A DNA stretch of 64,000 nt from Rubritalea profundi (GTDB lineage: Bacteria; Verrucomicrobiota; Verrucomicrobiia; Verrucomicrobiales; Akkermansiaceae). Shown here piece by piece: positions 2,101 to 5,471 of this stretch; the stretch's first letter is position 1; each line of letters opens with the position of its first letter. Under the pieces are notes generated by a model. The model ran no database searches, was not told the origin of the DNA, and saw only the letters and a list, made by a program, of their open reading frames with translations. Location of the stretch: contig NZ_MQWA01000001.1 in assembly GCF_002954445.1 (NCBI RefSeq), forward strand, positions 3,092,437-3,156,436, given 5' to 3'. The position numbers and the translations under genes are program-made.

Positions 2101-2514
2101 CTATCTCCCGTCCTGTCCGAGGACGGAGATGCGGAGGGCGTTGAGGTCGAGGTATCCGGGGGTGAGGCCGTTGGCTTTTCCTGGGATGATCTCGATGGTG
2201 AGTGGGTCGCCGGGTTGGATGCCATCGGGTAGGCTGGTGGCATCCCAGGAAAAACCGACGGTGTTCACGCTATTAGCTGGGCCGGGCGGGGTGTTGCTGG
2301 TGAGTTGGGCGAGCGTGGTGTCGCCGGAGACCAAGCGGATGGTGTAGCCGGGGAAGGTGGACGGGTTTTTGGCGTTTTTGGCCCGCACTCCGATGGTGGC
2401 ACTGACGGTGTAGTGGCTGTCTGTGGTGATGGTGCCGATCTCGCGTCGGATGGTTTGGTTGATGCTGACCATTCCTGCGCTACGCATGGATCCGATCAGC
2501 GCGGGTGGTTTTTT
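2101..2514 (-). pseudogene. Out-of-frame C-terminal part of the FecR protein
   Basis: This frame contains INQTIRREIGTITTDSHYTV, then GYTIRLVSGDTTLAQLTS and PGYLDLNALRISVLGQDGR, a beta-sandwich-like domain that reads as the natural end of a surface or FecR-linked Verrucomicrobiota protein. It follows the FecR frame directly: removing one A from the seven-base homopolymer at 2509-2515 joins ...LQDKK to PPALIGSMRSAGMVSINQT without interruption. So it is the last ~137 residues of the FecR gene, separated by a one-base frame break. The alternative, a separate small gene starting at 2556, lacks a signal peptide and a convincing start. Confidence 0.6.
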
Positions 2515-4471
2515 TATCCTGCAAGCCATCGTTATTATACCATTGGCCATTGCCACTCGGGTTGAGGAAGGTGACTTTGGCGTCGGTTTGCCATCCTGCG
2601 AGCCAGCCCACCTCCCGTGTGCCGTCTTCGAGATCGATCGGAGGGTTGATCGTCAGCATCCTGTCGTCGATGGACATGCTCGCGTCCCATACGGCAAGCT
2701 TGTTTTCGCTCCAATTGGTGACGTTCTGGATAAACACCCTGCCGGTGCCGAATTTGATGGGTTTGTTGAACAGCATCTTCAACTGACCTCCCTGTGTCGC
2801 GTTCATCGAGTCGTCGGCAGGGTAGGCGGCGATCAAGACGGGCGGCGAGTCATCGCGCGTGCCCGAAGCCGGGGGGGCTTGCGCGGGGTCGTCGTCGATG
2901 CCGAGAAGAGCGGTGGTGGTGGGCTCGGAGATAGGTTCAAAAGTGGCCTCTACAGCCATTTGAAAACCGAGATCGGAACTGTCGTTGTTCCTTTGGTGAA
3001 CTGATACTGAAATCGAATTCACACCATCGGCAAGCAATGATTGATCGAGTGTGATGTTCGTAGAGACTTCAACATTACCATGTCCATCCATCCCTGCGAG
3101 ATAGGTATCGTTTCCAGGTGAGGTATGGTAGTTGCCGGTAGCTTGTCCGTTGATGTAGATAAAGGCACCATCATCGGCCATGATGTTGGCCGTCAAGCCA
3201 GTGACGCTTGAAGCACTGATGGCACCTAGGTCGAAGGTTGTGGTGAAGTAGGCTGTGTAGCGTTTCCCAGAGTCTGGCGTGCCGATATTTACAGTAGGGA
3301 TACCTCCAGGCGAACCATAGCCGAACAGGCCAGAGCCGGAACCCGAAAATGCAGGGCCATCGTAGCGATTGCCAGCATCGTTTTGTGTGTACCAAGTCGT
3401 ATTGAAATCAGTATCGGCTACAGCAGGGTCAACGGCATCTAGTGGATGAAAGTAATTCCAAGTTGCGCTGGTCGGCAAAACGGTCGCCGTGGTGGCCAAG
3501 GTGTTGAAGTTCCAGGTGGTATCATCATCGATGCCGCCGAAGTCGTTGCCGGCGAGGTCGCGGATCACGGTAGGATCCATTTGGATCACGTAGTCGCGGT
3601 TGGCGATGAGTCCGGTCTCGAAGTTTTCATCGAGCAGCATGTCGATCTTTGGTGGTAAATTTTGGAGGAAGGCGGCGGGTGGGCCGTCGAGGTCGTGTTT
3701 TATATCAATGCCGGTGAGTAGGACCGAGCGGTTGGCATGGATGATTTCCCCTTTGTCCCTTTGTTTGCTGTCGACTCGCACGCGTCCTTGCAGGACGTGG
3801 AGTTCCACCTCGTTGCTGCCAATTTGGCAATCGATACCAAAGGCGGTGCCGAGGTCGACGATGCGCTGGTGGGGTGTGACGACGGTGAAGCCCTGGCCGT
3901 CGGTGGATGAGACTTTAAAATACGCCCGGCCGTGGTTGAGTTCGAGGGTGCGGTCGTCGCGTAGGATCATTTCTGCCGGGGCCTCGATGATGGCGCGGAC
4001 GTCGTGTGGCAGGATGAGTTCTACGACGCCGTGACGGAGCACGATGCGGGAATTTTTCGCTAGGGTGTTTCTGTCGGGGAGGGTGTCATCGGAGTTGTGG
4101 GTGAGGGTGAAATCTGTGCCGGGGGTGACGTGGACGGTGGCGAGGGTATGTGGTGTGTGGGAGACGGTGGTGAACCACATGACCGTAGCCATGATGGCGA
4201 TGAGGGCTGCTGCCGAGAGCAGGGAAATCCGGATTGAGCGCTTGCGTTGTTGGGCGAGGATCCATTCCATGGGGACGACCGGCATTTTTTCCACGGCTGC
4301 TAGGAACGAGCCATGGCGTTGCAGGCCACTATCCAGCCTGGTGTAGCTGAGGTAGAGATCCATCGCCTTGGGGTTTTGCAGAAGCTCGGATTCGAGTTTG
4401 GCAAACTGCTCGGCTGTCAGCTCGTCATCCAGCAGTTGTTGGATGCGTATTTCGAGATCGGGTAAATTCAT
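2480..4471 (-). CDS. FecR-type anti-sigma factor with inserted surface domain (chimera, frameshifted end)
   Basis: This is the membrane-bound regulator of the adjacent sigma factor. Residues 1-75 are a cytoplasmic helical region that would bind the sigma factor, 82-104 a single transmembrane segment, and about 112-240 a FecR domain (KNSRIVLRHGVVELILP, YFKVSSTDGQGFTVVTPHQR, VDLGTAFGI). Residues 295-323 look like the end of an Ig-like SbsA domain (DPTVIRDLAGNDFGGIDDDT). Residues ~325-523 are a copy of the neighbouring PEP-CTERM protein's domain, including a truncated tail (SEPTTTALLG). The frame then returns to the start of an Ig-like domain (SPPVLIAAYPADDSMNATQG). The stop at 2480 follows a seven-base homopolymer, and the real C-terminus lies in another frame (2101-2514). 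The start overlaps the sigma gene by ATGA, implying translational coupling. A chimera by recombination or misassembly is possible. Confidence 0.8.
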   Translation of the reverse strand: MNLPDLEIRIQQLLDDELTAEQFAKLESELLQNPKAMDLYLSYTRLDSGLQRHGSFLAAVEKMPVVPMEWILAQQRKRSIRISLLSAAALIAIMATVMWFTTVSHTPHTLATVHVTPGTDFTLTHNSDDTLPDRNTLAKNSRIVLRHGVVELILPHDVRAIIEAPAEMILRDDRTLELNHGRAYFKVSSTDGQGFTVVTPHQRIVDLGTAFGIDCQIGSNEVELHVLQGRVRVDSKQRDKGEIIHANRSVLLTGIDIKHDLDGPPAAFLQNLPPKIDMLLDENFETGLIANRDYVIQMDPTVIRDLAGNDFGGIDDDTTWNFNTLATTATVLPTSATWNYFHPLDAVDPAVADTDFNTTWYTQNDAGNRYDGPAFSGSGSGLFGYGSPGGIPTVNIGTPDSGKRYTAYFTTTFDLGAISASSVTGLTANIMADDGAFIYINGQATGNYHTSPGNDTYLAGMDGHGNVEVSTNITLDQSLLADGVNSISVSVHQRNNDSSDLGFQMAVEATFEPISEPTTTALLGIDDDPAQAPPASGTRDDSPPVLIAAYPADDSMNATQGGQLKMLFNKPIKFGTGRVFIQNVTNWSENKLAVWDASMSIDDRMLTINPPIDLEDGTREVGWLAGWQTDAKVTFLNPSGNGQWYNNDGLQDKKTTRADRIHA

Positions 4472-5004
4472 GACGGTGTTCCGGCGAGGGTGGTTTCGAC
4501 GCAGCGTCTCAGGATGGCGCGGATGCGGAAGAGCGAGATCCTCAGACTTCCCGGGCTGGTGTTGGTTTGTTTTCCGTGCAGCTCGAGCGATTCGCCGGGG
4601 GTGTAGCGGGCGTCGACAATGTGGCGTTGCTTGTCATTGAGTTTGTTCATGCAACTTTCGAGAATGTTCAGCGTCCGCTCGTGTGGGATGTTTACGGTTG
4701 CGGCGTTGGCGATATGGTTGATGAGGGATTCGGAAAAGACAAGACGCGTCTCGCGCTTGGCTCTGTCATACTGGTGTTGGACCTGGATGCGTGCGATTTT
4801 AAAGGCCCAGGCGTGGAAATTGGTTCCCTGTTTGAAGGACTTTTGTTTTTTCCAGAGCACTAGGTTGGTATTCTGGAGCACATAATCGGCGGACGGGCTG
4901 TTGGGCAACAACGAGTGAATAAAGGCACGCAGGTCTTCCTGATGTGCGATCAGCTGTGCGACGTAGGGCTGAGATTCCTCAGGTTTTGTAGACTCACTTT
5001 CCAT
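4468..5004 (-). CDS. ECF RNA polymerase sigma factor
   Basis: This 178-residue protein has the two-domain layout of extracytoplasmic-function sigma factors. Region 2 is at about residues 10-85 (SPSADYVLQNTNLVLWKKQK, then FHAWAFKIARIQVQHQYDRA, which contacts the -10 element). Region 4 is at about 115-170 (LNDKQRHIVDARYTPGESLE ... SLRISLFRIRAILRRCVE, an HTH for the -35). It matches the Planctomycetes/Verrucomicrobia-type ECF group linked to FecR proteins. Its stop overlaps the FecR start by 4 bases, so the two form an operon in which FecR likely holds the sigma factor inactive at the membrane. Target genes are unknown; the nearby PEP-CTERM and esterase genes are candidates by proximity only. 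Confidence 0.88.
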   Translation of the reverse strand: MESESTKPEESQPYVAQLIAHQEDLRAFIHSLLPNSPSADYVLQNTNLVLWKKQKSFKQGTNFHAWAFKIARIQVQHQYDRAKRETRLVFSESLINHIANAATVNIPHERTLNILESCMNKLNDKQRHIVDARYTPGESLELHGKQTNTSPGSLRISLFRIRAILRRCVETTLAGTPS

Positions 5005-5471
5005 CCTTATTTAATCAATCATGTGAATGAGCAAAACGTTACGCGAATTTGTCATTTATTTCGAGGGCAAGCCCGAAGCGACCAAGCTAAGTATTTCGCG
5101 GGCAACAATCAAAACAAATTCTGGGACTTCTACCAGGGCTCCTACACTAGGGAGACTATCTACGGAGACTATCTAGGTTGATGCCTGCGGCGCTCGACAG
5201 AATGAACAGAATTAACAGAATTTTTCAGAATGAACCAATGATGGCCGATGCAATTGCGATATTTCAGAAAGAATGAAAGGTTTCGTCCTTTTTTTAGCCC
5301 ACCCTTTTGAGAAATTCTGTTCATTCTGTTCATTTTGTTAATTCTGTCTAAAAATTCCCGAGTGTGGTGACCCTAGGACTTCTAACAAGCAACAAAATGG
5401 GCTGATGCAACGAGTGCACCAGCCCATGATTGATCTGAATCCAAGAGGATTCGTTGAGTCGTTTTGGGGGA
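5005..5471. repeat. Intergenic repeats: dispersed module and inverted repeat
   Basis: No gene is visible. GGAGACTATCTA is repeated at about 5152-5178. At 5176-5203 the sequence is the reverse complement of a module seen at about 16278-16303, 22206-22232 and 22440-22466 (core CTGTCGAGCGCCGCAGGCAT). Words of the type ACAGAATTAACAGAATTTTT (5206-5235) are mirrored by TTCTGTTCATTCTGTTCATT and TTGTTAATTCTGTC (5314-5349), forming an imperfect inverted repeat around about 80 bases. Confidence 0.6.
5394..5428 (-). terminator. Terminator of the esterase gene at 5472
   Basis: An 8-bp stem ATGGGCTG (5397-5404) pairs with CAGCCCAT (5420-5427), extended inward by TGCA/TGCA. On the minus strand it is followed by TTTTG. 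It lies about 45 bases downstream of the esterase stop codon. Confidence 0.75.

Follow-up and report, generated by a model that had tools for sequence, protein, structure and literature searches.

Why should an anti-sigma factor contain, in the middle of its own sequence, a domain of the surface protein encoded next door? This question is raised by a 64,000-nucleotide stretch of the Rubritalea profundi genome (contig NZ_MQWA01000001.1, hereafter the window), whose minus strand, to which all window coordinates below refer, encodes an ECF sigma factor (4468-5004), a FecR-type anti-sigma factor (2480-4471) and a PEP-CTERM protein (1054-1770). The sigma factor (178 aa) passes the cutoff of TIGR02989, the Rhodopirellula/Verrucomicrobium family (135.6 bits, cutoff 124.55), and is encoded as a pair with FecR, the start of which its gene overlaps. 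FecR itself (663 aa as read; PF04773, 34.3 bits, cutoff 24) consists of an N-terminal cytoplasmic part, a single predicted membrane span (approximately 4169-4225, residues 83-101, read from the sequence), the FecR domain and an ectodomain. The PEP-CTERM surface protein (238 aa) is made of a signal peptide, a single domain copy and a PEP-CTERM sorting signal (PF07589, 24.8 bits, cutoff 20.7; TIGR02595, 27.3 bits, cutoff 16). Downstream of it lies a frame-broken gene for a TPR-like protein (426-899), in pieces found in two frames (90% and 78% identical).

The first-pass annotation had described residues ~325-523 of FecR as a copy of the neighbouring PEP-CTERM protein, and the match is indeed extensive: residues 321-525 align to the ORF at 1054-1770 with 60% identity (E 5.8e-68; estimates range from 58 to 62% at the amino acid level), and the insert proper occupies 2903-3499, which corresponds to residues 325-523. 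The nucleotide comparison with 1054-1770 that it had called for gives 72.6% identity when codon-aligned (61.7% at the amino acid level), with blocks of repeated DNA that are 75-88% identical and keep a constant spacing of ~1801-1804. The copy starts just past the region of the PEP-CTERM protein's signal peptide and ends in a truncated PEP motif, SEPTTTALLG. The motif is cut after these residues and is internal, and no sorting-signal model matched the insert in the profile search. As a remnant of this kind is retained, the copying most plausibly went from the PEP-CTERM gene to FecR, and recombination between genes, one of the origins considered at first, is likely. That a domain was copied locally is, judging from these alignments, almost certain. 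Among seven other proteins with the domain from outside the two species compared here, a FecR domain was found in none.

The insert lies between two Ig-like segments, as had been noticed. Its left edge is the C-terminal part of a Big_5 domain ending in GGIDDDTTWNF (3500-3610; it matches the same C-terminal part of the Big_5 repeats of L008 and L042-L044), and its right edge the N-terminal part of a following one (2618-2854; PF13205, residues 540-618). Since the insert is placed after the single predicted span and after the FecR domain, it should project from the outer face of the inner membrane, in keeping with the established topology of FecR proteins. The GIDDD pair on both sides is present in the window, but it does not hold as a target-site duplication: the corresponding residues are GINDD and DLDDD in one orthologue (L040), and the second copy is lost in another one (L041).

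Such a composite could in principle be an artefact, and both a chimeric assembly and an insert missing from the real genome had been envisaged. However, an independent assembly, the Akkermansiaceae MAG Site_C18 (L040; L071 lies on the same contig), carries this insert in the identical position and with the same junctions, in a single intact ORF of 812 aa that is 72% identical over residues 1-656. The insert and its neighbour are moreover ~27% apart in nucleotides, too far for the assembly to have collapsed or wrongly joined them as identical repeats. The chance that two gene copies were wrongly joined in the window is therefore practically negligible, even though the homopolymer frameshifts of this genome show that its assembly contains errors. 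One of these frameshifts affects FecR itself: its frame is interrupted at an A7/T7 run near 2503-2509, beyond which the coding sequence goes on in another frame down to 2101, so that 2480 is not its genuine end, as had been read, but a frame break followed by an HpiC1-like tail (2101-2556; PF22825, 33 bits) that is 75% identical to the intact protein of Site_C18. Since the TPR gene and a phosphatase gene at another locus are also frame-broken, the break is probably a homopolymer error of the long-read assembly, and possibly a real mutation. Broken frames were seen in this genome in FecR, in TPR and in phosphatase genes (L198, ~12950; L199, ~7943), a pattern that suggests leftover indel errors from long-read assembly, and a further FecR gene (L094, G000:C1:1540186-1540895) is split by an in-frame TGA.

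Does the insert do anything, or is it carried along? One account is that it is a neutral by-product: neighbouring genes would swap exported domains simply by proximity, and FecR ectodomains would be tolerant spacers with no sensing role. The remnant of the PEP motif, which shows that the insert originated from a PEP-CTERM gene, and the location of the slot in an inter-domain linker both suit this account, but the pattern of selection does not. When the window is compared with L071, amino acid identity is 88% in the insert (dN/dS 0.17, Nei-Gojobori), whereas it falls to 67% in the N-terminal scaffold (dN/dS 0.32) and to 75% in the C-terminal scaffold (dN/dS 0.33). Within FecR, constraint is thus strongest in the insert, contrary to what is expected of a passive passenger, and because the insert is under such strong purifying selection, recombination is only part of the story; the neutral account appears quite unlikely to us. 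The idea that gene conversion still goes on between the insert and its neighbour was not supported, since the two FecR inserts are 88% identical to each other versus 62-67% to their neighbours. Some partial conversion is possible, given that dS is lower within the insert/neighbour pair of the window (0.49 versus 0.78-0.98).

Does the sigma factor control the protein from which the domain was taken? We found two putative sigma-specific promoters: the sigma-fecR operon has GTAACGTTTTGCTCATTCACATGATT at 5017-5042, ~13 nt before the start of the sigma gene, and the PEP-CTERM gene has GTAACGTTCCCCGATTCACATGATT at 1854-1878, ~85 nt before its start. In the readable part of the 4.17-Mb genome, the two-part motif GTAACGTTN{4,8}TTCACATGAT occurs exactly twice, in front of these two genes, and its reversed control pattern not at all; a looser pattern, GTAACN{9,12}CACATGA, yields one additional, unrelated site. 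In L071, where the sigma factor is 76% identical to that of the window, the PEP-CTERM promoter is kept at 4803 with one difference (GTAACGTTCCCCAATTCACATGATT), and behind it lie the TPR gene, intact in this genome and sited between promoter and phosphatase, and then the gene for a purple acid phosphatase that carries the domain twice (X-X). Based on the shared motif, the sigma factor very probably controls the PEP-CTERM gene. The body of the latter is missing from Site_C18 (L071:4803-4970), where the promoter and leader run straight into the RRRK tail, with the last codons PTTTALLGLGGLALILRRRK; this is a clean natural loss of a target gene with its promoter retained.

Promoter sharing extends to some other loci of this kind. 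Across 32 modules, the upstream regions of sigma and PEP-CTERM genes share words more often than those of swapped pairs (P=4e-4), a signal to which genome composition may contribute. Sharing is clear in a few modules (L081 with TTTTTTTGTTAAG, L075 with TTTTTTGGTTAACG, L088 and L085), and by this simple word-sharing method it is absent from many of the others. At L081 (2982-7135), five consecutive PEP-CTERM genes lie downstream of one sigma-fecR pair, and it is the upstream regions of the sigma gene and of the first of the five that have the above word in common.

The fold of the domain gives a hint as to what might be sensed. By sequence, the insert matched no solved structure, and its structure model is of moderate quality only (mean pLDDT 56.7, pTM 0.61); in a fold search, this model came closest to GH2 enzymes, namely to their N-terminal sugar-binding jelly rolls (Z 10.1, rmsd 3.1 Å over 129 residues). 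A model of full-length FecR was too poor for use (pLDDT 38.5). The same domain is found at the head of secreted phosphatases (L040:5903-9358). From this modelled likeness, it is reasonable to suppose that the domain may bind carbohydrates. A purple acid phosphatase in which the domain occurs twice is also encoded at another locus of the window genome (L199:4721-9694), where it follows a different PEP-CTERM gene and a TPR gene, in the order PEP-CTERM, TPR, phosphatase.

We therefore propose, as a rather probable reading, a switch made of an ECF sigma factor and a FecR whose swappable ectodomain has been copied from an exported protein under its control and probably senses the same ligand. The sigma factor would be held by FecR at the inner membrane, the outward part of which would offer a swappable slot between two Ig-like halves, filled by a domain copied from the exported protein whose gene is activated by the sigma factor. 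The copied jelly roll, similar to sugar-binding ones, would bind the ligand of the surface protein, which would also be that of the phosphatase and is probably a polysaccharide. Binding might then lead to proteolysis of FecR and release of the sigma factor, and the free sigma factor would transcribe its own operon and the PEP-CTERM gene. Of this scheme, the sequences themselves show the copying, its age and conservation, its recurrence with unrelated domains, and the promoter motif that the sigma and PEP-CTERM genes have in common. The more specific assumption, that the FecR insert and the PEP-CTERM protein recognize one and the same ligand, has in our view about even chances.

The main rival to ligand sensing is a feedback in which the PEP-CTERM protein itself would be what the FecR copy detects, whether through contact between the domains or through competition with it for a limited ligand, so that the switch would gauge the amount of surface protein. 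A domain that was copied from the exported protein and long retained, with the partner genes under the same promoter, would be expected on this account too. Yet the FecR insert is still highly conserved in L071, from which the PEP-CTERM body has gone (a phosphatase with the domain remains), and we regard such self-sensing as rather unlikely. By analogy with RsgI6, described below, carrying a copy of the domain would be no less compatible with the sensing of a common ligand than with the sensing of the surface protein.

Is the arrangement peculiar to these two genomes? In Verrucomicrobiaceae E54 (L041/L072), the orthologue shares the split-Ig scaffold, yet its slot is filled by an unrelated domain, 49% identical to one that occurs twice in the neighbouring exported esterase. 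The comparison of FecR orthologues suggested at the outset separates one that shares the insert (L040) from one with another domain in its place. Among five proteins with this scaffold (window, L071, L072, L063, L064), the slot holds four unrelated domains and mirrors a neighbour in three; the PEP-CTERM gene adjacent to the L063 paralogue does not match its slot, and at L064 the following gene is cut off by the end of the contig.

In order to extend this comparison, the ectodomains of 130 FecR proteins from 125 loci of Verrucomicrobiota were compared by BLAST with neighbouring ORFs, both their own and swapped. Matches to the own neighbourhood were found for 11 of the 130, versus 1.63 expected (P=5e-5); the discovery set contributed 8 of 73 (null 1.1, P=5e-5), and an independent set fetched later 3 of 57 (null 0.5, P=0.003). 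When matches of at least 80 bits are counted, own neighbourhoods give 6 of 130 and other comparisons 3 of 16,120, two of these three being the window and L071 orthologues. The mirrored domains include LamG (L127), F5/8 type C (L176), DUF642 (L081), HpiC1-like (L069) and unnamed ones (L133, L118, L122), and the partners are PEP-CTERM proteins, phosphatases, a GDSL lipase, a SASA esterase and a PSCyt1 protein. Mirroring is nevertheless found in a minority (11/130 by BLAST), most sampled FecR proteins carrying a LamG ectodomain with no detectably matching neighbour. A regulator with its neighbour's domain in the part outside the membrane is thus a recurring arrangement (L040, L041/L072 and the survey) and not a fluke. 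This recurrence with unrelated domains, mostly next to genes for exported proteins, also speaks against the neutral account.

As in 35 of the 130 loci the first gene to follow fecR on its strand, no more than 600 nt away, encodes a PEP-CTERM protein, the sigma-FecR-PEP-CTERM arrangement is a recurrent module. Mirroring overlaps with these modules, yet most of them are unmirrored. The three-gene form, in which an ECF sigma factor and a PEP-CTERM protein accompany a FecR whose ectodomain is mostly LamG, was seen in Akkermansiaceae and relatives (e.g., L114, L117, L126), also where ectodomain and target do not match. More tentatively, the FecR anti-sigma factors of Verrucomicrobiota may form a modular family of sensors that have repeatedly copied domains of adjacent exported proteins into a fixed slot, with each sigma factor adjusted either to what its own surface protein binds or to how much of that protein is present, in an evolvable one-operon unit for sensing and display. 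Given the copied domain, the shared promoter and the recurrence with unrelated domains, the presence of unrelated versions of the same design in related bacteria suggests that regulator and controlled protein seek the same thing. If so, the slot domain of a FecR can indicate which exported protein it serves, and the domain of that protein which signal is sensed.

This design resembles known systems in different respects. PEP-CTERM proteins were discovered in Verrucomicrobium, with 65 in one genome, and Haft et al. (2006) described shared sigma-54 regulatory DNA of their genes in Proteobacteria only (PMC1569441). The target described here is a canonical PEP-CTERM protein, in a genome with two exosortases (PF09721 matches over cutoff) and with an adjoining TPR gene, comparable to PrsT in Proteobacteria; unlike regulation by PrsK/PrsR with sigma-54, a dedicated ECF sigma factor and anti-sigma factor are linked to the PEP-CTERM gene. 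The locus thus offers a concrete, testable regulator for these proteins beyond Proteobacteria. In the literature outside subscription papers, we found no work joining FecR, PEP-CTERM and anti-sigma factors, or PEP-CTERM, ECF sigma factors and operons. The pairing of an ECF sigma factor with a FecR-domain anti-sigma factor is shared with FecI/FecR/FecA, but in the classical system it is a TonB-dependent outer-membrane transporter that signals to FecR (PMC9249621), while the present FecR has an extra ectodomain of its own, copied from an exported target protein.

A close parallel is SigI/RsgI, in which the outer part of a membrane anti-sigma factor resembles exported enzymes under its control: in Clostridium thermocellum, RsgI6 has a GH10 ectodomain 57% identical to Xyn10D, other RsgI proteins carry CBM3 or PA14, the sigma gene is autoregulated, and promoters are shared with the targets (PMC4711584). 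Here too, the ectodomain is homologous to a domain of an exported protein, whose control is suggested by the shared promoter. RsgI and SigI are, however, unrelated Gram-positive proteins, in contrast to the TIGR02989 sigma factor and FecR-type anti-sigma factor of this system, in which targets include PEP-CTERM proteins and the domain occupies an internal slot instead of a terminal position. As neither RsgI nor SigI models were among the matches listed for the window proteins in the profile search, the FecR module most likely works like RsgI without being RsgI. The trick of making a sensor from a domain of the controlled enzyme would then have arisen in unrelated proteins.
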